Assembly (NCBI GenBank): GCA_023398855.1
Contig: JAEWRS010000400.1
Coordinates: forward strand, 1-13,275
Direction of reading: 5' to 3'
DNA length: 13,275 nt
Source of the DNA: Bacillota bacterium
Lineage (GTDB): Bacteria > Bacillota > Clostridia > Lachnospirales > Lachnospiraceae
Of this stretch, positions 1-13,275 are shown piece after piece (position 1 is the first letter of the stretch; every line of letters begins with the position of its first letter). The notes beneath the pieces were generated by a model. It saw only the letters and a program-made list of their open reading frames with translations. It was not told the origin of the DNA and did no database searches. A program made the translations under genes and the position numbers.

Positions 1-1254
1 CTTAAATACCTCCAAAAGTTCCTTATGTGGCGCGCCCGCTATTTCGGCTCCATAGGAACAATTAATAAACCGGATCCGCTTCTGGTCCTTGTAAATGGTG
101 ATGTAGTGTTCCAGCCTTTTTCGGTAATGCTCCAGGGTGACCGTTGTACCCACCGGTTTTCCGTAAACATCCTTTACTAGGGTTGTGGCACGGTATGCCA
201 GGCTTTTATCGTAATCAAAGACCGCACTGTCCGCGTGGTGTTTGCGATAAGTGTGGGCAAAATCCTGACCAAGGAATATAATGGGAGAGCAGCCCATCAT
301 GTTTGCAATATCAATACAGGCGTGGGCAACGGAGCCTCCGCAGTACACTGCCTGGTATTGTTCAAAGCCCTCCACTGTGTGGGAGAACAGGAGAGAGATG
401 AAGACTTTTTCTCCTTTATATTCCCTTACTAAATACCTGTTGCTGTATTCGTAAAATGCAAGGGGGACCGAAAGATCCAGGCTGTTCTTCATCATATCAA
501 AGTTTGCATCAACAGGGTCCACGGATACGATCATATCAGGAATAATCCCGTTTTTCGTCAAAGCTTCCACTGTCCTGCTTCCGGTGATGATAAAATACTG
601 GTCAAGCAGCTCCTTTTGGTCAAGCATATCTTTTAGGTTGCTGTCCAGGGAAGGCCCCCCAGATACCACCAGAGCCGGTACATTTAAGTTGGAAAATCTG
701 CAGCGGTGGATCGGTGTGGATAAGTCCAGTGCCTTCATATTAGCAATCATATTCTGAATAAAAACTTTTTTAAAGCGCTTTGCAAGATCAACCTGGGAAG
801 CTGCATTAATGATGGACCAATCCAGCAGCTCGGTCAATCGCTGGTATTCTTCCTTATAAATGCTTTGGTAGTTGCCAAATGCGTGAAAGAAGATGTTATT
901 AATATTTTTAAAATGAATGAAGCTGTTAAAGATTTGTCTGACCTGGTTTTCTTCATAAGGAACAAGAATAATATTATCTCCCAATCCAGAACTGTTTTTT
1001 TTCAGTATTTCGAGGTTTGGTTCAAAAATAATCACCTTGTTTCTATCACAAATCACATTTTTTACATGGGGAAGGTATGCCCCTGTATCAATTCCAAATA
1101 ACAGAATCAGGGAGTCAAAATTTAACCCCTCTAAGTTATCCAGCAGTTTATCAATATCCTTTTTATAATTGCTTTGGTCGGCTAAAAAGAGCAGTTCCTT
1201 TTCTTTCTTTATCCCATAGACATGATATCCATCTATTGTTTTATAAGCTTTCAT
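1..1254 (-). CDS. Maf-type motility-associated glycosyltransferase-like protein (MAF_flag10/DUF115), 3' end outside window
   Basis: The frame is open without a stop from the ATG at 1254 down to base 1, giving 418 residues of a longer protein. The start is set by GGGAGG at 1260-1265, five bases before the ATG. The N-terminal part (about 1-190) holds an acidic/aromatic region with FGIDTG near residue 60. The core then shows VVSGGPSLD (196-204), SVDPVDANFD, CGGSVAHAC and FLGQDFAH (327-334). SGGPSLD plus GQDFAH is the hallmark of the MptE-like domain of the Maf family, which in clostridia, Campylobacter and Aeromonas takes part in adding nonulosonic acids to flagellin. The protein would therefore be cytoplasmic and act on flagellin before export. 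It is the third gene of a leftward group, 38 bases after the preceding stop codon. The family call is firm; the sugar and the acceptor are inference, and no flagellin gene is visible in the window. Confidence 0.82.
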   Translation of the reverse strand, partial: MKAYKTIDGYHVYGIKKEKELLFLADQSNYKKDIDKLLDNLEGLNFDSLILLFGIDTGAYLPHVKNVICDRNKVIIFEPNLEILKKNSSGLGDNIILVPYEENQVRQIFNSFIHFKNINNIFFHAFGNYQSIYKEEYQRLTELLDWSIINAASQVDLAKRFKKVFIQNMIANMKALDLSTPIHRCRFSNLNVPALVVSGGPSLDSNLKDMLDQKELLDQYFIITGSRTVEALTKNGIIPDMIVSVDPVDANFDMMKNSLDLSVPLAFYEYSNRYLVREYKGEKVFISLLFSHTVEGFEQYQAVYCGGSVAHACIDIANMMGCSPIIFLGQDFAHTYRKHHADSAVFDYDKSLAYRATTLVKDVYGKPVGTTVTLEHYRKRLEHYITIYKDQKRIRFINCSYGAEIAGAPHKELLEVFK

Positions 1255-2277: not shown

Positions 2278-4260
2278 ATGAATTTAAAAGGAATTCGGCA
2301 GAAAATCATTTTAAACACATTAATTGTCACATTAATCATTTCTGCAGTGACAACCGTTGTATTATCTGTTTCTGCCATGTCTCTGACTAATGCCACATTA
2401 ATGGAAACCCTTATCCCATTTGCAAAAACTGCATCAAAAAGCGTTGAAAGCAGTCTGCATATTATGGCAGACCGCATATTGTTGATCGGAGAAAACCAGG
2501 AACTGTTATCAGAGGAAGCATCTCTGGAACAAAAGCGTCAGGTTCTCAATAAAGCTGCTTCGGGCATAGAATTTGTGTGGCTGGCTCTATACACCCAGGA
2601 TGGCAAACGATACACCGGCTATGGAAACAGTCCTGAAGACATTTCCGGCAGAGACTTGCACCGTATGATGGAGGAAACCCAGAACATAGTCATTGGGGAT
2701 ACTTTTGAAGGAGAAAACGGACTTGAGGTATCCGTGGGAACACCTATTTCCACTGACAAGCAGAACACTTATTACCTGGTGGGAAGCTATAAATATGACA
2801 TGCTTGACGATGTGATCAGCAGCATACATATCGGCTACAGCGGCCATGCGTTTATTATAAACGAAAGCGGCCAGGTGGTTGCCTATCCTGATACCGGCAT
2901 TATTAAGAGTGGTGAAAATGTATATTCTCTGTACAAGGATCATCCAAAGATTCTGGAAGTTTTCGATGCAATGAAAACAGGAAGAATCGGATCGGCTTCC
3001 GTGTCCATGGATGGAAAGGATACCCTTGTGGTTTATGCACCGGTACGGGGAGCTAACTGGTATTTGGCCATTATGACCCCTAAATCAGATTTTACCGGCA
3101 TTGTTAAGTCCGCAGTAATGATCAATATAGGAATTATTATTACCCTTACACTTCTTGCAATCCTGTTTATTGCCCGTTTTTCTGGAAAGATAGCAAAGTC
3201 ATTGGGGAGCGTAACAGAACGGATACAAAGGCTGGCCCAGGGAGATCTCACAAGCCCGGTGGAAGTAATGATGACAAACGACGAGGCCCAGACTCTCTCA
3301 GATTCCTTAAAGGATACGATTGAAAAGGTGAGCGGATATATTTCCCAGCTTCAAAATGCCCTGGAACAGCTTTCTGCCGGAAATTTAGATGTGAGCGTCA
3401 GCAATCAGTTTGCAGGAGATTTTGTGATTATGAAAGACTCCATACAAAACATAACTGATTTCCTCAATCAGCTGATCCAGGACTTGCAGCAGACGGCAGA
3501 GACCTTAAACCGTGCAGCCCAGGGAGTGTCTCAAAGCGCCCGGTTTATGAACGAATCCTCGGCTCATCAGTCGTCGGCTATTGACAGGCTTTTAGAGGAG
3601 ACCGACTCCATATCCAAAGACATCGTTATTGTGGATGATCATGCAAGAACCGCCCGGGAGCTTATGGAACAGTCCATGGAAAAGCTGTCCATGGGTGATG
3701 AACACATGGAAAATACCCTTCAGGCCATGAAAAATATCAGCCACAATGCTTCTGAAATAACAAAGATCACTAAATTCCTTGAAGAAATAGCCTTCCAGAC
3801 AAACCTGCTTGCCCTTAATGCAAGTGTTGAAGCCGCCCATGCAGGCGAGACTGGGAAAGGTTTTGCTGTAGTGGCAAATGAAATCCGTGACCTTGCTGAA
3901 AAAAGCGCGGAATCTTCCAAGCGCACGGCCGAAATGATTGGAAATTCCCAGAGAGCTGTGGAAGAGGGCTCCCGGTATGCCAATTTAACAGCCAGCTTCT
4001 TAAACGAGCTGACGGATATATCAAGGCAGACCTATGAGATTACGGAGGACTTAGCAAGGCTGGTAGGAAATGAGAAGTCCAGCCTGGAAAATGCGTCTTC
4101 AGACATAGCACGGATTTCCCAGCTGGCCCGCCAGAACCTTGAATCAAGCAGTGATGTGGCTTCCTTAAGCGGGGATTTAGCAAAGCAGGCCCAAAGCCTT
4201 GAAGAAATGTCCGGACGTTTTCGTCTGCGTACCGGTTCCGAAGGGAGAGATGCTGAATGA
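2278..4260 (+). CDS. Methyl-accepting chemotaxis protein with dCache sensor
   Basis: This 660-residue transmembrane chemoreceptor starts at an ATG with AAAGGAGG seven bases upstream. TM1 spans about 10-33 and the extracellular sensor about 34-278. The sensor has a Cache-type pattern ([17 protein letters not shown]; then [21 protein letters not shown]). TM2 spans about 279-303, followed by HAMP (about 303-357) and a second HAMP-like segment ([10 protein letters not shown]). The signalling coiled coil has the canonical hairpin tip [18 protein letters not shown] (503-520), then [19 protein letters not shown]. The tip contacts CheA/CheW and controls the flagellar motor. No CheR-binding pentapeptide is seen at the C terminus, which ends GSEGRDAE. 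The ligand cannot be read from sequence, although dCache domains often bind amino acids, organic acids or amines. The gene overlaps the next one by ATGA, so the two are translationally coupled. Confidence 0.95.
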
Positions 4261-4709
4261 ATAAAAGAAAACGCTATTTCATGATTTTCCTGCTCCTTCT
4301 TGTGATGTTACTCCTAAGCGGCTGTAAAAAACAGGAGAGCAGGATGGAGGATGGCTTTTATTCGGTGGAGATGTCGGATTACAACAAAGGCTGGAAGGAA
4401 TTTGTTACCATCCGGGTCAGCGACGGCAAAATCGTAACCGTTGAATACAATGCCAGAAATGCCAGCGGGTTCATAAAATCCTGGGATATTCCATATATGC
4501 GCATGATGAATGAGGAAAAGGGAACCTACCCCAACCGTTATACCCGCGCTTATGCAGCCAGCTTCCTGGCGGTCCAAAGCGATAAAGGAATTGATACAGT
4601 GAGCGGAGCTTCTACTTCAGGCGGCAATTTTCAGAAAATGGCTTCCTTGCTTATGGAAAAAGCAAGAGAGGGAGATACTTCACTGGGTATTGTAGAAGCA
4701 GGACAATAA
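4257..4709 (+). CDS. FMN-binding-domain lipoprotein coupled to the chemoreceptor
   Basis: The 150-residue protein starts inside the stop of the chemoreceptor gene (ATGA). It has a positively charged N terminus (NKRKR), a hydrophobic helix and a lipobox LLSGC with Cys23, so it should be anchored on the outer face of the membrane. The remainder matches the small FMN-binding domain (PF04205 type, as in RnfG/NqrC): DGFYSVEM, then [15 protein letters not shown], and the flavin motif DTVSGAST at 113-120. Proteins with covalently bound FMN usually read D-x-x-S-G-A-T; here the acceptor position carries Ser119, with Thr120 next to it. The likely role is extracellular or membrane-surface flavin redox chemistry. 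Coupling to a chemoreceptor suggests that it takes part in redox or electron-acceptor sensing, which is inference. It is followed by a weak and then a strong terminator. Confidence 0.85.
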
Positions 4710-4935: not shown

Positions 4936-5176
4936 GTAAAAACATGTATGTAAGCACTCTGACCGCTTTTTCCTGATCTCTTATGTTTATATTATTATGA
5001 TACAGGATAAATGTGAAGGAATTTTGACCTGGTTATAAAAAATGTATGAAAGAAATGAAGAAATTCTGACAAAAATTGGAAAAGTATCCAAGCTGATGCT
5101 GCTTATAATAATCATAACAAAAATTTTTCTGCAAAAAGAATCTCCATGGAGCAGGAAAACAGGCGGAGGTACGGAT

Positions 5177-5743
5177 ATGCTGCTTGAAAAGAATTTAATT
5201 GAATATTGTTCTCCCACACTGGCATCCCTTAAGACAGCAAGCCTGTTTAACCATACCTTTTCCTCGGAACAGGAACTGGAAAACCAGTTGGCAGTCTTAA
5301 ACAGCCAGCTAAAAGGGAAAGGCATCTCTCTTCAGGTGCTATGCAGGCGAAGAAATAAGGCGCTGATCTATGTCTATCGGAGATCCCATCTGCAGGCGGA
5401 TTTAAGCCGGCCGGAAGTAGGCAGGTTTTTAAAGGCCTACGGCTATGAGCAAATGGAGGTGGAGGGCGCTCTTAACAGGCTGAAGGAGCGTTTGAATCAG
5501 GAAGGGGGATTTCCCCATGAAATCGGGGTATTTCTGGGCTATCCTCTGGAAGATGTGGTGGGGTTTATCCAAAATGAGGGAAAGAACAGCAAATGTACCG
5601 GCTGCTGGAAGGTATATGCCGATGAGCGGGAGGCTGCCCGGCTGTTTGCCAGGTACCGGAAATGCAGGACCGTGTATGTGCGTCTGTGGCAGAATGGAAG
5701 GACGGTCTGGCAGCTTACCGTAGCGTCTTCCTCCGTTCCATAA
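5177..5743 (+). CDS. DUF3793 family protein
   Basis: I start this gene at the ATG at 5177, which has GGCGGAGG seven bases upstream. A longer frame from 5042 exists, but its first 45 residues (a lysine-rich stretch with an isoleucine run) are not part of the family and no ribosome site precedes that ATG. The 188-residue product has the expected size and ends of DUF3793: MLLEKNLIEYCSPTLASLK at the start, then HEIGVFLGYPLEDVVGFI, CTGCWKVYAD and RYRKC towards the C terminus. It should be a soluble cytoplasmic protein. The family is common in Firmicutes and has no established biochemical role that I know of; members are sometimes found near iron or flavodoxin genes, but none lies here. It appears to be monocistronic, since a strong promoter for the next operon starts 175 bases downstream. 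Confidence 0.88.
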   Translation: MLLEKNLIEYCSPTLASLKTASLFNHTFSSEQELENQLAVLNSQLKGKGISLQVLCRRRNKALIYVYRRSHLQADLSRPEVGRFLKAYGYEQMEVEGALNRLKERLNQEGGFPHEIGVFLGYPLEDVVGFIQNEGKNSKCTGCWKVYADEREAARLFARYRKCRTVYVRLWQNGRTVWQLTVASSSVP

Positions 5744-5917
5744 AGTTCCCCGGTCTGATTTTGATTTTTTTTCGTATCATATCCTTTTTCTGCAATAAAG
5801 CTCTATGGGCAAAAATCGGCACAGGTATGACCTTGATATTCCATTTGCTAAATTGTAAAAAATGCATAAAAATAGCGCTAATATTTTGAGAATAATATAC
5901 AAAATTCAGATATGAGA

Positions 5918-5946
5918 TTGACAATAATAACATAAACAGCTATAAT
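5918..5946 (+). promoter_or_regulatory. Consensus sigma-A promoter of the sugar operon
   Basis: TTGACA (5918-5923) and TATAAT (5941-5946) are both perfect consensus hexamers with the ideal 17-base spacing. Transcription should start near 5953, leaving a leader of about 47 bases before the ROK gene. A promoter this strong in front of a catabolic operon normally needs a repressor, which fits the palindrome just downstream. Confidence 0.92.
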
Positions 5947-5952
5947 TAGAGT

Positions 5953-5970
5953 AACTTAATTAATAAAGTT
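5953..5970. promoter_or_regulatory. Near-perfect 18-bp palindrome at the start point, candidate ROK-regulator operator
   Basis: AACTTAATTAATAAAGTT is palindromic at 16 of 18 positions (AACTT ... AAGTT arms). It begins seven bases after the -10 box, so it overlaps the predicted start point. ROK repressors of the XylR/NagC type bind AT-rich inverted repeats in such positions. Autoregulation by the first gene of the operon is the natural inference. AT-rich sequence yields palindromes by chance, so the confidence is moderate. Confidence 0.5.
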
Positions 5971-5999
5971 TATAAAGTAAGTGTGAGGTGGTTTAAATT

Positions 6000-7121
6000 A
6001 TGGCTGAGATGGTTGGAAAACCAAGTGTAATAAAATTATTAAATAAAGATGTGGTAGAAGGAATTATTCGTGGAAATGGTCCAATCACAAAACCGGAAAT
6101 AGCGAAACGATCACAATTAAGTCTGGTAACAGTAAATAAAACAGTAGCTGCACTGATTCAAGAAGGTAAGGTAAGAGTCAGCGGAGCCAGCGAATCCACC
6201 GGCGGCAGGAGAGCAGCGTCCTTTGAAATTAATCATGAGTCAAATTTTTATATCGGGCTTTATTATTATAAGAATCATTATATTGGAGCCATTTCTGATT
6301 CCATAGGTGGATTAATTTACGAGCAGGAATTTCGTGCCAGGGTGGATGTCTATGAAGAGATCATGGAAGATACCTATGCTGCGCTGGACGGCCTCATTGA
6401 AAAGTGTGGTGATCATAAGATAAAAGCCATAGGTATTGGTGTTCCCGGAGTTGTAAAGGAATGTACCATTACTAATATTCCCAATATCCCTTCCTGGGAG
6501 GGGAAAGATATTTCGGGTATTTTATCGGATAAATACCAGCTTCCGGTTCTGCTTGAGAATGATATTAAGCTGACTACGTTAGGAATTTATACTACAGAGT
6601 ATCAGAATAATAAAGTCAGAAACATGGCATTGATTTATCTGGATCAGGGAATTGGATCTGGATTTATCATTAACCGGTCATTATTTAAAGGTTTCAGTAA
6701 TTTTGCCGGAGAGTTAGGTTACATACCGGTGAAGCAGCATTTTCCTATAAAAGGAAAAGAAAGCAGGTATAAAGGAAACTTTGAAACACAAATATCATTG
6801 ATCAGTGAGGCAATTGAACAATCATTGGGACTGCCAGAGCAAGAGATGTATAAAGATATGCTGATTCGGACGATCACGGAAGGCCTATTAAGTGTTATTT
6901 GTGTTTTGAATCCTGAAATCATCGTGATGAAGCATAGCTGTCTTACAGAACATGATTGTCGAAAGATACAGCGGGAACTGTCCGACTGGTTGGATGAGAG
7001 CAACGTTCCATTCATTGTAAATGAGGCTGATTTGAGTAAGAGCAGTATTCAGGGTGTAATCAGCATGTGCATCAGGGAGAGTACTTCTGCCTATTCATTA
7101 TCAAATAAAAAACGAGGTTGA
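6000..7121 (+). CDS. ROK-family transcriptional regulator, degenerate kinase domain
   Basis: The product has 373 residues; GAGGTG precedes the ATG by nine bases. Residues about 10-60 form a winged helix-turn-helix (KPEIAKRSQLSLVTVNKTV, then a wing near STGGRR). The rest is a ROK fold with GVPGVV (147-152), END (186-188, with the Asp in the usual catalytic position) and DQGIGSGF (215-222). Two hallmarks are altered. The ROK motif GExGH reads AGELGY (236-241), so the zinc- and sugar-binding His is a Tyr, and the Cys-rich zinc loop that normally follows is absent. The protein is therefore probably a sugar- or glycoside-responsive repressor without kinase activity. It heads the operon, sits next to a palindrome at its own promoter, and is followed after four bases by the kinase-hydrolase fusion gene, whose substrate or product is the likely inducer. 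Confidence 0.9.
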   Translation: MAEMVGKPSVIKLLNKDVVEGIIRGNGPITKPEIAKRSQLSLVTVNKTVAALIQEGKVRVSGASESTGGRRAASFEINHESNFYIGLYYYKNHYIGAISDSIGGLIYEQEFRARVDVYEEIMEDTYAALDGLIEKCGDHKIKAIGIGVPGVVKECTITNIPNIPSWEGKDISGILSDKYQLPVLLENDIKLTTLGIYTTEYQNNKVRNMALIYLDQGIGSGFIINRSLFKGFSNFAGELGYIPVKQHFPIKGKESRYKGNFETQISLISEAIEQSLGLPEQEMYKDMLIRTITEGLLSVICVLNPEIIVMKHSCLTEHDCRKIQRELSDWLDESNVPFIVNEADLSKSSIQGVISMCIRESTSAYSLSNKKRG

Positions 7122-7125
7122 TAAG

Positions 7126-9234
7126 ATGAAATATTTATTGTCAGTAGATGGGGGAGGAACCAAAACAGAATTTTATATCAGTGATTTACAAGGTAATATG
7201 ATAGATATTTTTACAACTGGATCAACTAGTATCAAGTCGGTTGGAAGGGAAAAATCCTATGACCAGCTAAAGGCAGGGATTGATCGGCTAAAAGAGGAAT
7301 ATCAAATTATCCCTGATGATATTTTAATGGGAGTATTTGGAATGTCAGGATGTGATTCTGATAAAGATTATCAGATGATTCTTGATCAGATTTTGAATCT
7401 GGGATTTACAAAAAACAATGTTCATTTATGTAACGACGGTGTACCGGCATTTTATGCTCAAACACTGGAACCGGGAGTTGTAGTGATTGCAGGAACCGGT
7501 TCAATCGTAATGGGGATAGATAAACAGGGGGAGGTCAGACGTTCGGGAGGTTGGGGATATCATTTCAGTGATATTGGATCCGGCTATTGGATTGGATGCG
7601 AGATATTAAAGAGAACTCTTCTTTATTGTGATAACTGTTACCCATATGCACCTGTATTTGAACGGGTCAGAGGCTATTTCCAGGCGGAAAGATATACAGA
7701 ACTTCCATATACAGTGACGGAAATTAAAGATAGTTATAAAATTGCGGGCTTAGCTTATGAAGTTGTAAAAGCAGCCGAAGAGCAGGAAGAATTATCCATT
7801 GAAATTTTAAAAGATGGAGCCAAACAATTGGCTGATCAGGTTGTGGGTATGGTAAAACAACTGGATTTATCAAAGTCTCCAAAGATCGTTTTTTCAGGCG
7901 GCGTATTAAAAAGTAAGGTTTATCAAGAGATGCTTAAGTCGGAAATCAGAAAATTAATTCCTGATCAGGATATTCAGTTTTATATTCAGAAGAATAAGCC
8001 ATCCTTTGGAGGGATAAAGTTAGCACAGCGGCTGCTGGATAAGAGGAAAGAAATTGTCCTGCAGGTATTTACCGGAGGATATTTGAATAAAGAGACTACT
8101 TATGAAGAAGTGGAAAGCAAATTAAAACCAATACTGGAAAATATAAGGGTGACAAAGGTAATTATCGGATGGTTTGCTGATGAGGAGCTATATAAAAAAA
8201 TAAAAATAATGATACATATGTATCAGGCAGAATTATATTTATGGATGCCGGTTTTTTCAGAGACAGGATTGCTGGAACCGGTAAGTTTCCTGCAGGATTT
8301 CCGGGGGGAAGAAGTAAAAAGTTATCGGCTGAATGACGGAGAAAATTTTGAGTTTTATTGCCCTAATGTAAAGCAAAACAGAGAAAGTGTAAAACATATT
8401 TATGAAAAACATTTTAGTAAAGTAGGCTTTGATGGAATATTTTTAGATAAAATCAGGTATTCTTCCTTTTCCAATAAAATTACCGGAGTGTTTAGCTGCT
8501 TCTGTCCTGAATGTATGAAGAAGTATGAGGAAAGACAACTGGATGCCGATGAATTACGTATGGAGATGGATAAAGTTGTTGATGGACTGGAAGGTTATGA
8601 CAGACACCCGTTAAAATGCTTATCTTATGAAGCTGGAAGATATGGGTTTGATAATCCCATCTGGAAAAAATTTTTTGACTGCAAAGCAGATTTTATCTAT
8701 GATTCGTTAAAAGAAATTACCGGTTACTTCCGGGGGCAGGGGCTGAAGATCGGCATGGATGTGTTATCACCTTTTTTAACACATTTTACCGGACAGGATC
8801 TGTCAAGACTCAAAGGATTAACAGATTTTATGAAACCTATGATGTATCGGATTACTAGTGCTCCGGCAGGACTTCCATTTGAATATGACAGCTTCCTGTC
8901 TGGCACCACCAGCTTTGATACTCATACGGTAAGGAGAGAGTTTAATGAGCTGATTGGAATTAGGCCAAGCGGGGAGAACCAGTTTGATCTTGATTTTGTG
9001 AAATCAGAACTGGAGATTATGGAACGAATGGATATACCGGTATATTGCGGGATCGAGGTCAACAGAATTAAGGATGTTGTACAGGCAGATCCGGAATATA
9101 TAAAAGATACAATTAATACTCTGTCTCAAACAAATATTAAAGGATTTGTGTTATCCTGGAATATCCTATCGGCACCGGAAGAAAATATTGAGGCAGTCTA
9201 TCATTGCTTTGGAAGCAGGGGTGAAATGCAATGA
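7126..9234 (+). CDS. Fusion of BadF/NAGK-type sugar kinase and glycoside-hydrolase-like TIM barrel
   Basis: This is one uninterrupted 702-residue frame. Residues 1-305 are an ASKHA sugar kinase of the BadF/BcrA or N-acetylglucosamine kinase family: DGGGTKTE (8-15), ND (103-104), AGTGS (122-126), GGWGYHFSDIGSGYWIG (141-157) and FSGGV (256-260). After a short charged linker, residues about 312-702 resemble uncharacterised glycoside-hydrolase-like barrels. They show FDGIFLDKIRY (435-445), a small Cys group CFCPEC (458-463), IGMDV with Asp545, YCGIEVN with Glu644, and a final strand GFVLSWN with Trp678. The candidate catalytic acids are Asp436, Asp441, Asp545 and Glu644. There is no signal peptide, so both halves should act in the cytoplasm on an imported substrate, perhaps hydrolysis followed by phosphorylation of the released (amino)sugar. 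The kinase half is secure. The barrel assignment is by motif pattern, and the substrate is unknown. It overlaps the ABC ATPase gene by ATGA. Confidence 0.85.
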   Translation: MKYLLSVDGGGTKTEFYISDLQGNMIDIFTTGSTSIKSVGREKSYDQLKAGIDRLKEEYQIIPDDILMGVFGMSGCDSDKDYQMILDQILNLGFTKNNVHLCNDGVPAFYAQTLEPGVVVIAGTGSIVMGIDKQGEVRRSGGWGYHFSDIGSGYWIGCEILKRTLLYCDNCYPYAPVFERVRGYFQAERYTELPYTVTEIKDSYKIAGLAYEVVKAAEEQEELSIEILKDGAKQLADQVVGMVKQLDLSKSPKIVFSGGVLKSKVYQEMLKSEIRKLIPDQDIQFYIQKNKPSFGGIKLAQRLLDKRKEIVLQVFTGGYLNKETTYEEVESKLKPILENIRVTKVIIGWFADEELYKKIKIMIHMYQAELYLWMPVFSETGLLEPVSFLQDFRGEEVKSYRLNDGENFEFYCPNVKQNRESVKHIYEKHFSKVGFDGIFLDKIRYSSFSNKITGVFSCFCPECMKKYEERQLDADELRMEMDKVVDGLEGYDRHPLKCLSYEAGRYGFDNPIWKKFFDCKADFIYDSLKEITGYFRGQGLKIGMDVLSPFLTHFTGQDLSRLKGLTDFMKPMMYRITSAPAGLPFEYDSFLSGTTSFDTHTVRREFNELIGIRPSGENQFDLDFVKSELEIMERMDIPVYCGIEVNRIKDVVQADPEYIKDTINTLSQTNIKGFVLSWNILSAPEENIEAVYHCFGSRGEMQ

Positions 9235-10724
9235 AGCGGATATTAGAGATGAAGCACATATATAAAGATTTTGGAAGTGTAAAGGTGTTGAATGATATTG
9301 ATTTTTCACTGGAAAAGGGGGAAGTCAGAGCTCTTTTAGGCGCGAATGGTGCAGGAAAATCTACATTGATAAAAATAGTGGGCGGTGTTCATGCTCCATC
9401 CAAAGGTGATATTTACTTAAGAGGAGATAAGATAAATTTTAAGGACAGTTATCATTCAAAACAATCAGGCATTAGTGTGATCTATCAGGAACTAAGTCTA
9501 GTACCTACACTATCGGTAATTGACAATATCTTTCTTGGCAGGGAAGTGACATCCGGTGTCTTTTTAAAAAAAGAGGAGATGAGAAAAGAATATGAAGATA
9601 TTTGCCGGCGTTTTTCATTTGATATTCCTGCAAATGCGATTGTGTCAAAGCTGAGCATTGCCAGGCAGCAGATGGTAGAGATTATGAAAGCAGTATCCTG
9701 TGATACTGAGATCATTATTATGGATGAGCCTACAACTTCACTTACTAATAATGAGAAAGCAAGCCTTTTTGGAATTATTGCAAAGCTAAAAGAAGTTGGG
9801 AAAAGTATTATTTATATATCACATATCTTAGATGAGATTTTTATAAATTGTGGTAGCGCCAGCATTATGAGAAATGGCATTATGGTGGGAAGCTATGATG
9901 TAAAGGATCTTACAAAAGAAAAAATCACTCAGTTGATGACTGGCATTGACAGCAGCAATATTGCAGGAAAAAAACAGACCTTTCATGCAGATTATACAAG
10001 CGAACCAGTTTTGGAAGTCAGAAATCTTGGTCGGGGAAATGTGGTAAAAGATGTGTCCTTTAAAGTTCATAAAGGGGAAGTGGTAGGAATTGCCGGCCTG
10101 GTCGGTTCTAAACGAACGGAGATCATTAATCTGATTTATGGAGTGGACCATTGTGACCGGGGTGAAATTTTAAGAAATGGAACAGTTGTAAAGATAAGAT
10201 CACCTAAGCAGGCGATTCACCATAAAATCGGTTTCATTCCGGAAGACAGAAAACATCTTGGCCTGATACTGGGACAGGAAATCTATAAAAATTCTACGGC
10301 TGTCCAGGTTGGAAAGTTTAAGACGTCAGGCTTCCTGAATAAAGGGAAAGAAATAGAATTCGCTGAATTTGCAGTAAAGAAACTGGGCATTAAGATCAGC
10401 AATGTAAAACAGAAGGTAAAAAACTTAAGCGGCGGCAATCAACAGAAGGTTGTAGTATCCAAATGGCTGAATCAGGATATGGATTTGATTATTTATGACG
10501 AACCTACCAAAGGAATTGATATTGCGGCAAAGGAAGACATTTTTCGTACTGTAGAGGAATTCTCAGGACAGGGAATAGGGGTCATATTTATTTCATCCGA
10601 TTTAGAGGAAGTGATCCGTGTTGCAGACCGGGTACTGGTAGTCAGAGATGGAACGGTTGTTAGTGAGTTGAATAATGACAAGCTTACAGTTCAGGAAATT
10701 ATGGATGAGATATTTGATGTATAG
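9231..10724 (+). CDS. Sugar ABC transporter ATPase, two-domain RbsA/MglA type
   Basis: The 497-residue protein has two nucleotide-binding domains in tandem, as in RbsA, MglA and XylG. Domain 1 has Walker A GANGAGKST (37-45; most relatives have GENGAGKST), a Q-loop in VIYQELSLV, the signature LSIARQQ (141-147), Walker B IIIMDEPTTSL around Asp165-Glu166 and a switch His in ISHILDEI. Domain 2 has the usual degenerate P-loop GLVGSKRTE, the proper signature LSGGNQQK (399-406) and YDEPTKGID (422-430). It energises import through the permease encoded next and works on the inner face of the membrane. The start codon lies in the stop of the fusion gene (ATGA), showing tight coupling of kinase/hydrolase and transport. 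The substrate class is a monosaccharide or a small glycoside; the exact sugar cannot be told. Confidence 0.94.
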   Translation: MKRILEMKHIYKDFGSVKVLNDIDFSLEKGEVRALLGANGAGKSTLIKIVGGVHAPSKGDIYLRGDKINFKDSYHSKQSGISVIYQELSLVPTLSVIDNIFLGREVTSGVFLKKEEMRKEYEDICRRFSFDIPANAIVSKLSIARQQMVEIMKAVSCDTEIIIMDEPTTSLTNNEKASLFGIIAKLKEVGKSIIYISHILDEIFINCGSASIMRNGIMVGSYDVKDLTKEKITQLMTGIDSSNIAGKKQTFHADYTSEPVLEVRNLGRGNVVKDVSFKVHKGEVVGIAGLVGSKRTEIINLIYGVDHCDRGEILRNGTVVKIRSPKQAIHHKIGFIPEDRKHLGLILGQEIYKNSTAVQVGKFKTSGFLNKGKEIEFAEFAVKKLGIKISNVKQKVKNLSGGNQQKVVVSKWLNQDMDLIIYDEPTKGIDIAAKEDIFRTVEEFSGQGIGVIFISSDLEEVIRVADRVLVVRDGTVVSELNNDKLTVQEIMDEIFDV

Positions 10725-10738
10725 AGGAGATGTGTGAT

Positions 10739-11704
10739 ATGAAGAATAAAATGGGTGTACTGAAAAAAATGAATTTTCGGGAATATGGTGTTGTTATTGG
10801 TTTTATTCTGCTGTGTGTGGTCATCTCATTTGCAACTCCGGCCTTTGCAACTCAAAAGAATATCTTAAACCTGTTACGGCAGTCTTCCATCATCGGCATT
10901 ATCGCAACAGGAATGACATTTGTAATTATATCAGGAAGCTTTGATATCTCCGTTGGGGCGGTAGCTGCTTTGTCAGGTGCGGTAACAATGAAACTGATAA
11001 CAATGGGGAATGGAGTTCCGGTAGCAATCGCTGTTTTGGCAGCTCTTGGAATCAGTGCAGTGGTGGGACTAATTAATGGTATTGCAGTTGCCAAAATTAA
11101 TGTACCTTCCCTGATTGCAACCATGGCAATGGTAAGTGTAGTAAAAGGTGCCATGCTGATGTTTACCGGAGGTTATCCAATTACAAGAACAATTCCGGTA
11201 CTGGATACCATCGGAAATGGATATGTGGCTGGAATTCCCATTCCTGTCATCATATTTGCAGCAGCGGTTGCCATAGCTTTTGTAATTCTTACAAAAACAC
11301 GATTTGGAAGATATGTTTATTCTGTTGGCGGCAATGAAGAAGCCAGTAAATTAAATGGAATCAATGTAGACTCTTATAAAATAAAGGTATTTGTAATCAA
11401 TGCAGTTTTAGCGGCATTGGCCGGGATTGTACTGGTAGGCAGAATGGGAACGGCCAGTCCGGTAGCGGGAGATGGTTATGATATGGATGCAATTGCATCA
11501 GTAGTAATTGGCGGTACTTCTGTTGCAGGCGGATCAGGATCTGTACTGAAAACAGTCATTGGAGTGCTGCTTATGAGCGTGATTAATAATAGTTTTAACT
11601 TACTTGGTGTAGATATGTATTTTCAATATATATTTAAAGGATTAATTATATTAATCGCAGTGGGAGCAGATTCATTTAGTAAAAAGCAGATGGCTTCAAG
11701 TTAA
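10739..11704 (+). CDS. Sugar ABC transporter permease, RbsC type
   Basis: The start is the ATG at 10739 because AGGAG at 10725-10729 lies nine bases upstream. The in-frame ATG at 10730 touches that site directly and cannot be used. The 321-residue length is typical. The protein is a multispanning membrane protein with the conserved RbsC patterns GMTFVIISGSFDISVG near residue 60, NEEASKLNGIN (the cytoplasmic coupling loop that contacts the ATPase) and SVVIGGTSVAGGSGS, followed by the closing helices ending in FKGLIILIAVGAD. It presumably forms a homodimeric channel. It lies 14 bases after the ATPase gene and 27 bases before the binding-protein gene. Confidence 0.94.
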   Translation: MKNKMGVLKKMNFREYGVVIGFILLCVVISFATPAFATQKNILNLLRQSSIIGIIATGMTFVIISGSFDISVGAVAALSGAVTMKLITMGNGVPVAIAVLAALGISAVVGLINGIAVAKINVPSLIATMAMVSVVKGAMLMFTGGYPITRTIPVLDTIGNGYVAGIPIPVIIFAAAVAIAFVILTKTRFGRYVYSVGGNEEASKLNGINVDSYKIKVFVINAVLAALAGIVLVGRMGTASPVAGDGYDMDAIASVVIGGTSVAGGSGSVLKTVIGVLLMSVINNSFNLLGVDMYFQYIFKGLIILIAVGADSFSKKQMASS

Positions 11705-11731
11705 GCCCAAAAAAGAAAAGGAGAGAATAAT

Positions 11732-12748
11732 ATGAAGAAGAAAATGAAAAAAGTATTAGCATTTGGATTGGCAGTGGTGATGGCGGCGGGTATGACTGCT
11801 TGTTCTACCCCAACTCCAACCAAAGAAGAGACTACAGCAGCTACAGAGGTCCAAGAAACAGAGGCAGCCGGTGGGACAAAAGACGAGTATAAAATCGCAG
11901 TTTTACTTCCCGGCCCAACAGGTTATTTTGTAGCTACAAAAGAAGGAATTGATGCAGCTGCAAAAGAAAATAATGTAAAGATTGAATATGCAGATGCACA
12001 GTGGGATGCTTCCAAACAGCTTGCTCAGGCAGAAGATTTTATTGTAAAAGGTGTGGATTTAATCGCAATATGCTCTGTTGATTCAGGATCAGGTGAGAAG
12101 ATTGTAAAATCTGCTAATGAATCTAATATTCCAATTCTTGCATTTACCAATGCAATTGGTGAGGAGGAAAACGGACAATATGATGGTCTTGTATCTTATG
12201 TAGGACAAAATGAAGTAAATACAGGTGCAGTAACCGGTGAACTTGCTAAACAGTTGTTAGGTGAAAAAGGCGGAAAGGCAGTTCTCATTGAAGGCGTTCC
12301 GGGAACAACACCACAGATCAATAGAAAAAAAGGATTAGAGCAGGCATTGGAAGGCAGCGATATTAAAATTATTTTTAATCAGACATCAAACTGGGAAAAG
12401 GAACAGGCACTTAGAATAGTAGAAGATATGATTCAGAAAAAAACTGAGTTTGATATTGTAATCTGTCAGGATGATAACTCTGCAACTGGGGCAGGACAGG
12501 CTTTAAAAGAAGCAGGATTAAAAGATACTGTAAAAGTTATCGGTCTGGGCGGAAGTATTGATGGTCTACAGGCAGTTAAAGCTGGTTTAATTGATGGTAC
12601 TACCTATATGTCAGCAGTTGAAGAAGGGCATGTAGCTATTGTAACAGCAGTTAATTTCTTAAAAGGTGAAACAGTTGCTCCTGTTACAGAAATTAAACAG
12701 GTTGAAGTAAATAAAGATAATGTAGATACTTTTAAAGGGGAGTGGTAA
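11732..12748 (+). CDS. Sugar-binding lipoprotein of the ABC importer (RbsB-like, Peripla_BP_4)
   Basis: The 338-residue protein has an AAGGAG ribosome site eight bases before the ATG. The signal is KKKMKK, a hydrophobic stretch and the lipobox MTAC with Cys24, then a Thr/Glu-rich linker (about 25-50). Residues about 52-338 are a type I periplasmic-binding fold: YKIAVLLPGPTGYFVATKEG, WDASKQLAQAEDFIVKGVD, ILAFTNAIG, VLIEGVPGTTPQINRKKG, FDIVICQDDNSATGAGQAL and VKVIGLGGSIDG. This is the extracellular receptor that hands sugar to the permease. The aromatic residues at the usual ligand positions (Phe after TGY, Trp in QWDAS) suggest a pyranose ligand, but identity cannot be deduced. It is the last gene of the operon, and transcription should continue into the hairpin-rich region downstream. 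Confidence 0.94.
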   Translation: MKKKMKKVLAFGLAVVMAAGMTACSTPTPTKEETTAATEVQETEAAGGTKDEYKIAVLLPGPTGYFVATKEGIDAAAKENNVKIEYADAQWDASKQLAQAEDFIVKGVDLIAICSVDSGSGEKIVKSANESNIPILAFTNAIGEEENGQYDGLVSYVGQNEVNTGAVTGELAKQLLGEKGGKAVLIEGVPGTTPQINRKKGLEQALEGSDIKIIFNQTSNWEKEQALRIVEDMIQKKTEFDIVICQDDNSATGAGQALKEAGLKDTVKVIGLGGSIDGLQAVKAGLIDGTTYMSAVEEGHVAIVTAVNFLKGETVAPVTEIKQVEVNKDNVDTFKGEW

Positions 12749-12880
12749 GATTTTTGCAAAAAAAAATCACTGCACAGTTCATATGGCTTTAGCATCTTTT
12801 GAACAGTCTGTGCCGGAAGTGGCCAGCTGGGAAAAAGCTAAAAATTAGCATCAATGAAATTTGATTGATGTAAGCGGTCG

Positions 12881-13144
12881 TTGGTAATTGATTGGACAGG
12901 TACTTATGAATTTCCCCAGGTACTGATGATCCAATACGCCAACGGTCGCTTTCATTTTTATTCAGTATTTTGGAAACAAGGCGAAAACCATTTTAAGAGT
13001 AGCCGCCATCCTTATATTGCGGCTCAGTATACAGCAGATGGAGATTATCAGTCTTCTCTAATCCGTAACGAAACGGATAAAATATCAAAAGAGACTGTAA
13101 CAAATGCGGAAGCTTTAAAATTGCCCTATAAATCGGTATCATAA
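12881..13144 (+). CDS. Doubtful 87-residue reading frame (TTG start), possibly a gene remnant
   Basis: This frame begins at a TTG with no ribosome site. The frame opens only four codons earlier, after a TGA, so no ATG is available. The product is Tyr-, Phe- and Trp-containing (FHFYSVFWKQGENHF, then HPYIAAQYTADGDY) and has an ordinary amino-acid mix, so it could be the tail of a decayed gene. I recognise no family. The sequence also forms several perfect hairpins, which a small RNA would explain as well. Its stop codon lies inside the terminator stem at 13124-13161. Confidence 0.2.
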   Translation: MVIDWTGTYEFPQVLMIQYANGRFHFYSVFWKQGENHFKSSRHPYIAAQYTADGDYQSSLIRNETDKISKETVTNAEALKLPYKSVS

Positions 13145-13233: not shown

Positions 13234-13241
13234 CTTACCTA

Positions 13242-13275
13242 TGACCTATCCGAGAATCGAACTCGGGTTTCCGCC
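13242..13275 (-). tRNA. 3' part of a tRNA gene (identity not determinable)
   Basis: On the minus strand the edge sequence contains a perfect T arm: stem CCGAG (complement of 13262-13266), loop TTCGATT, stem CTCGG (complement of 13250-13254). It is followed by a seven-base acceptor strand ATAGGTC and discriminator A at 13242. No CCA is encoded. The anticodon lies beyond base 13275, so the amino acid cannot be read. The expected 5' acceptor strand is GACCTAT. Confidence 0.88.

Follow-up and report, generated by a model that had tools for sequence, protein, structure and literature searches.

What does a single polypeptide that begins as a sugar kinase and continues as a predicted barrel do, and is the joined gene real? 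In the window (the whole stretch of 13,275 nucleotides analysed here), positions 7126..9234 (+) form one ATG-initiated frame without internal stop that encodes a protein of 702 aa (P0001), as a first-pass annotation of this DNA had proposed; we also agree with it, judging by eye, that the protein has no signal peptide. Residues 1-305 (7126..8040, +) form a BadF/NAGK/MurK-type sugar kinase domain, assigned from PF01869, PDB and fold matches, and residues 306-702 (8041..9231, +) form a predicted glycosidase-like (beta/alpha)8 barrel domain. The full-length AF2 model of P0001 has a pLDDT of 93.1 and a pTM of 0.69. The junction, at about residue 305/306, is also the point at which stand-alone barrels start.

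Using the barrel half, we searched 5.8 billion proteins, with candidates limited to 386-1228 aa, and obtained 195 relatives, the best 120 of which were listed. Among these 120, the architecture sought by the first-pass annotation in other genomes recurs in four further kinase-barrel fusions (P0002, 92%; P0003, 77%; P0028, 48%; P0041, 46%), alongside one barrel-RbsA fusion and 115 stand-alone barrels of 386-419 aa. The name of P0002 comes from Lacrimispora, and the record represents a cluster of 50 member sequences. In P0035 (894 aa), a single record among the matches listed, the barrel is fused to an RbsA-type importer ATPase and not to a kinase. A sequencing or assembly error could in principle have joined two genes, as the two genes either overlap or are separated by a few bases, and use different frames, in all seven of the separate kinase-barrel pairs inspected; however, the independent records P0002 and P0003 share the window junction, and P0028 and P0041 represent a second, separate fusion. 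The error near 8041-8060 that the annotation had considered is thus not borne out; its expectation that homologues would encode the halves separately holds for most listed relatives, but not as a sign of error, since the fusion recurs. We consider an artefact extremely improbable and are all but certain that the kinase-barrel fusion is real. Among the papers listed by a literature search, none describes this architecture by title and opening of the abstract.

The separate barrels in most listed relatives, together with a kinase gene as the direct neighbour of the barrel in 10/56 loci (see below), indicate a lineage-specific fusion of operon partners. In a barrel tree of 32 chosen rows the five fusions are not united; a tree constrained to group them is worse by 40.3 log-likelihood units (AU p 0.001), and the grouping appears in 0% of 200 bootstrap trees. 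A quick barrel tree of 80 rows likewise needs two changes. The kinase-half tree (24 rows) unites the five fusions at 65/88, which is without support, so the case for two origins is drawn from the barrel tree. Two separate fusion origins are likely on these alignments; a single fusion that was later split again is also conceivable. Sequence comparison describes a recurrent fusion of two neighbouring operon genes, in which the kinase looks intact and is of the amino-sugar type.

Residues 7-283 match PF01869 (BcrAD_BadFG) with an E value of 5.2e-39 and 134.8 bits, passing the cut-off of 31.5, and the phosphate motifs DGGGTKT and GTGS are present together with an N103-D104 pair. In an alignment of 19 kinases (5 fused and 14 separate), D8, G10, K13, N103, D104, G123, G125 and S126 are invariant in all 19, so the kinase half looks intact, in keeping with the complete BadF/NAGK-type kinase of the earlier reading. 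Asp104 (codon 7435..7437, +), which follows Asn103 and is invariant in 19/19, is the candidate catalytic base, a role taken from the sugar-kinase alignment. The nearest solved proteins by sequence are the Sulfolobus tokodaii hexokinase (2e2n, 3.8e-30), MurK (8zo3, 8.8e-25) and human NAGK, and fold comparison of the predicted kinase places 8zo3 nearest (TMt 0.86), with 2e2n at TMt 0.85. The 8zo3 structure is the Clostridium acetobutylicum MurK with GlcNAc, 26% identical to the window kinase half. The Asn-Asp pair and the phosphate motifs are common to MurK, the NAGK/BadF-type kinases and the window kinase; the solved representatives, however, are single-domain proteins, whereas the window kinase is fused. 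Against the NagK_SO3507 equivalog model (NF046058) the window protein scores 83.4 bits, far from the cut-off of 370. From these comparisons the kinase is very probably active on a hexose or hexosamine. In a comparison with Tannerella forsythia MurK, residues of the Asn103/Asp77 type are reported to disfavour MurNAc. We dropped the exclusion of MurNAc on the basis of Asn103 and Asp77, as the clostridial MurK, a MurNAc/GlcNAc kinase according to its PDB entry, aligns with identical letters at these positions; MurNAc use is therefore not inferable from these residues of the window kinase.

Fusion of this kinase domain to another amino-sugar enzyme is known from the BadF kinase-MurQ and BadF kinase-AnmK proteins. 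Among kinase relatives of 386-1228 aa (n=96, table count), 56 carry MurQ/SIS-type domains, 6 carry AnmK and one carries both. The partner in the MurQ and AnmK fusions is an etherase or a second kinase, whereas in the window it is a barrel. Separately, P0187, a predicted protein of 675 aa, combines a BadF-type kinase with a GH20 domain and is possibly a second kind of kinase-glycosidase fusion.

The barrel half (residues 306-702) has no Pfam or NCBIfam match below E 0.1 and no significant PDB sequence match (best 0.049). Plasmids gave no match at 1e-5, nor did PHROGs at 0.001. Foldseek matches of the predicted barrel are moderate (best TMq 0.58, rmsd 6.4), and the listed fold neighbours are nearly all glycosidases or their non-catalytic kin, with some transferases and a pyruvate kinase; the barrel-like second half suggested earlier is in this sense supported by a predicted glycosidase-like barrel fold. 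The C-terminal strand ends are the catalytic face of such (beta/alpha)8 barrels. Four acidic residues had been singled out as barrel motifs that might share one pocket. Three of them, Asp441, Asp545 and Glu644, are conserved and lie at or near C-terminal strand ends in the predicted model, with strand ends serving as the measure; the fourth, Asp436, is kept in only 123/168 rows and was ruled out as a catalytic residue. Asp441 (codon 8446..8448, +; barrel D136, at the end of beta4, 132-136) is kept in 169/169 rows and is a candidate catalytic acid, and Glu644 (9055..9057, +; barrel E339, at the end of beta7, 334-339), kept in 168/168 rows with one gap, is the candidate second catalytic acid. 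Asp545 (8758..8760, +; barrel D240, near the end of beta5, 236-241) is kept in 168/169 rows, and Glu586 (8881..8883, +; barrel E281), absent from the earlier list, in 169/169. The alignment also strictly keeps Arg, Gln, Trp and Tyr residues, one of each. We regard the barrel as probably a glycosidase, and the searches suggest that it belongs to a GH-like family without prior description, with predicted chemistry.

Comparison with known barrel families places this family near several of them and inside none. The highest profile-profile link (94.9%, 165 columns) is to DUF4015 (PF13200), a putative glycosyl hydrolase domain. In this alignment D441 falls on the Asp of F-D-Y-V-R-F and D545 on the Asp of S-A-D-V-F-G, a GQ and a PM-x-Y are common to both, and the aligned DUF4015 consensus has a gap where the barrel has its four-cysteine stretch. 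DUF4015 is found at E 1 or better in 27/35 barrel relatives (best 9.7e-06), and with a raised limit in the window protein at E 0.1 and 12.1 bits, short of the cut-off of 27; as judged from profiles, the link is one of kinship, not membership. The one paper that a literature search found to name DUF4015 assigns it no function. The C-terminal, GH153 domain of PgaB (E. coli, B. bronchiseptica) is 11% identical to the barrel. PgaB works in the periplasm on a polymeric substrate, and the E. coli PgaB domain has in its sequence no Cys4 site like that of the barrel. The GH153 model PF14883 has no match in the window protein, matches 6/35 relatives (best 0.011) and is absent from the eight carrier genomes searched (0/8). 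The GH153 catalytic Asp ends beta4 (D474 in B. bronchiseptica); D441 is placed at the end of beta4 in the barrel, but the profile alignment with PgaB breaks off at FDGI, immediately before D441. E585 of PgaB has a binding role and is not regarded as catalytic, so the two-acid reading (D441 and E644) is drawn by analogy. For GH42, PF02449 has no match in the window protein; the acid/base of GH42 is the Glu of an Asn-Glu-Tyr on beta4 (PMC8573354), whereas beta4 of the barrel ends in F-L-D, so that Asn-Glu is absent. GHL6 (PF14871) likewise has no match in the window protein and matches 2/35 relatives (best 0.027). Membership of the barrel in GH42, GH153, DUF4015 or GHL6 was ruled out on family scores.

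A further conserved feature of the barrel is a predicted structural metal site at 8359..8514 (+), formed by Cys412 (8359), Cys458 (8497), Cys460 (8503) and Cys463 (8512), which are kept in 167, 167, 166 and 167 of 169 rows. Their spacing of 46, 2 and 3 resembles the Cys-zinc site present in part of GH42, a match of pattern only, with the metal predicted; profile alignments pair C412 and the CxCxxC with GH42 and the CxCxxC with GHL6. In a study of the GH42 enzyme Gal42, zinc is reported to be bound by Cys113, 153, 155 and 158 and to stabilise the fold while taking no part in the catalytic cycle, and the cluster is described as not general in GH42 (PMC8573354). By analogy, we infer that the four cysteines would hold a structural zinc. 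In the barrels of L171 and L173 all four cysteines are replaced together and the acids are retained. That the site is lost solely as a block is mostly true, but one further row has a Phe at the third cysteine alone. As a separate observation, a Bacteroidales barrel (L023:4209-5357) seems, by eye, to carry a lipoprotein-like signal at its start, so some members of the family may be exported.

In the window, importer genes adjoin the fused gene, as the cytosolic uptake reading of the first-pass annotation expects. A CUT2 ABC importer ATPase of the RbsA/AraG type lies at 9231..10724 (+; PF00005 1.4e-49; NCBIfam sugar-importer models below their cut-offs), its ATG at 9231 overlapping the stop of the fused gene, and is followed by an RbsC-type CUT2 permease (10730..11704, +; PF02653 2.7e-43) and an RbsB-type CUT2 substrate-binding, lipoprotein-like protein (11732..12748, +; PF13407 9e-52) whose best PDB match is the D-ribose-binding protein 7e7m (2.4e-39). 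Upstream, a ROK-family transcriptional regulator (HTH plus ROK; 6000..7121, +; PF00480 2.6e-23; NagC model 79.2 bits, below the cut-off of 650) is likely the operon regulator, and is preceded by a sigma-70-type promoter, TTGACA-17-TATAAT (5918..5946, +; 12/12 matches). Promoter-like sites in 5700-13000 number 23 against a shuffle mean of 24.8, hence not above it, and that at 5918-5946 is the sole 12/12 match. CcpA-type cre sites with at most one mismatch number 11 in the window versus 6.6 by chance, a count reached in 11/200 shuffles, and we gave these sites no weight.

CUT2 importers usually carry monosaccharides. This usual cargo and the ribose-binder-like RbsB are a poor fit with an imported disaccharide, and they lend some weight to the alternative that the barrel is a non-hydrolase enzyme (lyase, isomerase, epimerase or transglycosidase) acting before or after phosphorylation, as does the fact that the barrel meets no GH family cut-off. 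A GH-like fold does not fix the reaction, given the transferases and the pyruvate kinase among the fold matches; yet glycosidases and their non-catalytic kin make up nearly all of the fold neighbours listed, the positions of the conserved carboxylates are the strand ends usual for catalysis in such barrels, and the lipoprotein-like start of the L023 barrel is as in exported GHs. We hold such a non-hydrolase to be distinctly unlikely.

To follow the barrel across genomes, we scanned genome contigs, where the single protein gave no relative and the alignment gave 46 loci; whole-genome searches added 10 analysed loci (L167-L176), making 56 in all. L166, on the same contig as L002, and the further matches in the C. 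difficile family, L068-L075, were left out of the counts. Several of the 56 are near-duplicates of one another, among them four records from C. difficile, two from Terrisporobacter and some pairs in other groups, so fewer than 56 are independent. A barrel ORF was called in 54/56 loci (absent in L024 and L175), and contigs end directly upstream of the barrel in four loci and directly downstream in two. The family is patchy in distribution: the family sample of L001 has it in 15/397 genomes at E 0.001, only 4 of them below 1e-100, the C. difficile family sample in 10/71, the class of the Treponema locus L011 in 9/297 at 1e-20, and the phylum of L001 in 2/398 at 1e-20, one being the centre genome itself.

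An RbsA-type gene lies directly 3' of the barrel in 17/56 loci (L001-L006, L008, L009, L012, L016, L017, L025, L167, L168, L170, L172 and L173). A BadF kinase gene lies directly 5' of the barrel in 10/56 (L001-L008, L012, L016); with the range widened to four genes upstream and five downstream, the count rises to 14/56 (adding L011, L013, L018 and L044); nine of the 56 loci have the kinase directly before and RbsA directly after. L017, L025 and L167 have no BadF kinase in range and carry a single-domain ROK kinase-type gene after RbsB, possibly a non-orthologous replacement. The L017 and L025 ROK proteins score best with a glucokinase subfamily model (139.5 and 145.2 bits), missing its cut-off of 260.35. 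BadF and ROK were the kinase types sought near the barrel, and neither is in range in L009, L168, L170, L172 and L173 (5 of the 17 CUT2 loci), the L173 contig ending just upstream of the barrel; the barrel thus adjoins importer genes also where these kinases are absent nearby. In the Spirochaetia loci L168, L170 and L172 the order is RbsB-barrel-RbsA-RbsC, with a second ABC ATPase and, by eye, response-regulator-like genes near. In two Oscillospiraceae loci, L018 (8015-9982) and L044, a protein of 640-656 aa is encoded directly before the barrel, and the L018 copy has no Pfam match.

These arrangements bear on whether the barrel might be a non-catalytic sugar sensor or an importer assembly factor that also regulates the kinase. 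The adjoining ABC ATPase gene in 17/56 loci, five of them without a near BadF or ROK kinase, and the fusion to the ATPase in P0035 would fit such a role; however, strict conservation of the acids and of the Arg, Gln, Trp and Tyr is typical of catalysis, and many loci, above all in Erysipelotrichaceae, have no query-panel gene, importer genes included, beside the barrel, and this speaks against a constant role alongside the importer. We judge this alternative very unlikely.

Clues to the substrate come from genes beside the barrel. Directly before the barrel, the Treponema locus L014 encodes what is clearly a chitobiose phosphorylase (1056.9 versus 485.9 bits), and L015 has a chitobiose phosphorylase-type gene 79% identical to it. 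In L011, L013 and L015 (the latter two by similarity to L011) the barrel has a convergent GH20 hexosaminidase gene as its neighbour, and L007 combines the kinase and the barrel with a GH9, a CUT1 importer and a GlcN6P-deaminase-like gene (nagB model, 150.1 bits, below the cut-off of 236.9). Altogether an amino-sugar link is found in 6/54 loci (L007, L011, L013, L014, L015 and L037). Against an amino sugar stand the GH94 of L037, which is nearer cellobiose phosphorylase, the GH9 of L007, nearest endoglucanases, the stop within the L007 barrel match, the GH2 mannosidase-type neighbour in L013, the GH8 in L018 and the ribose-binder-like RbsB of the window, and the core ROK-kinase-barrel-RbsABC operons hold no chitobiose phosphorylase- or GH20-type amino-sugar gene. 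The L014 and L015 genes, the GH20 neighbours and a kinase of the kind fused elsewhere to MurQ and AnmK make an amino sugar the leading class, and we lean slightly towards it as the substrate. The barrel match in L007 (10001-11161) holds one stop codon and a neighbouring permease is seemingly split in two ORFs, which reflects either a pseudogene or poor assembly.

As a plausible mechanism, the CUT2 ABC importer would take up a small glycoside, most likely one containing an amino sugar. The barrel, distant kin of DUF4015, the PgaB GH153 domain and the Cys-zinc barrels of GH42 and GHL6, would cleave it in the cytosol with the carboxylates D441 (beta4) and E644 (beta7), aided by D545 and E586, its four cysteines holding a structural metal. 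The MurK/NAGK-type kinase would then phosphorylate the freed sugar at O6, trapping it for glycolysis, and the fusion would hold the cutting and phosphorylating activities at a fixed ratio. Of this account, computation shows the fusion, the kinase family, the predicted barrel fold, the conserved residues and the linkage in the operon, whereas hydrolysis, the metal, the amino-sugar substrate and the order of steps are inferred from them. We give this explanation as a whole an even chance, and that cutting precedes phosphorylation is fairly likely.

The order could also be reversed: the kinase would first phosphorylate the imported glycoside on its non-reducing sugar, and the barrel would then act as a 6-phospho-glycosidase. 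Many GH4 enzymes act on phosphorylated glycosides, and a BadF kinase gene comes after a GH4 gene in L011, L013 and L018, but for the L011 and L018 copies of GH4 the nearest model is that of alpha-galactosidase, whose cut-off they do not reach. With a beta-glucoside kinase model, the L017 and L025 ROK proteins reach 107.5 and 118.3 bits, far below the cut-off of 550, against their better glucokinase scores, and the nearest PDB protein of the L017 copy is an N-acetylmannosamine kinase. The five operons without a near BadF or ROK kinase fit a barrel that acts on unphosphorylated sugar. We rate the reversed order as unlikely and retain cleavage before phosphorylation.

Our analysis identifies a glycosidase-like family that lacks annotation, is strictly conserved and has a predicted metal site as well as predicted catalytic residues, and ties it to one uptake route by its operon and by two kinds of fusion, to the kinase and to the importer ATPase. 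The substrate of this importer operon, present also in C. difficile, becomes directly testable. In the C. difficile loci a ROK regulator is the first of six genes in a row, and this run is followed by genes that we take to be kdpABC. A C. difficile CcpA study reports CD1584-CD1589 as a CcpA-bound operon (PMC3510511). From gene count and order, this is probably the C. difficile barrel operon; a literature search by CD630_1584-type locus tags found nothing. Tentatively, and short of an even chance, the barrel may found a new GH family of Bacillota, Spirochaetota and Bacteroidota, cytosolic and acting on a CUT2-imported amino-sugar glycoside, with the fusion as the first one-chain glycosidase-kinase and its C. 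difficile counterpart probably in CD1584-CD1589. If true, the known GH families could gain a member, and the known enzymes one that performs both cutting and phosphorylation in a single chain.

The remainder of the window holds other genes. At its end (13240-13275), what by eye looks like the 3' part of a tRNA gene lies on the minus strand, cut by the window end; ARAGORN found none. An MptE-like protein (1-1254, minus strand; PF01973 4.1e-43) is cut by the opposite end. At 2278-4709, a chemotaxis receptor with dCache, HAMP and MCP signal domains is followed by an overlapping small gene whose match to an FMN-binding model is weak (0.009, below cut-off), and a DUF3793 protein (1.9e-62) is encoded at 5042-5743.
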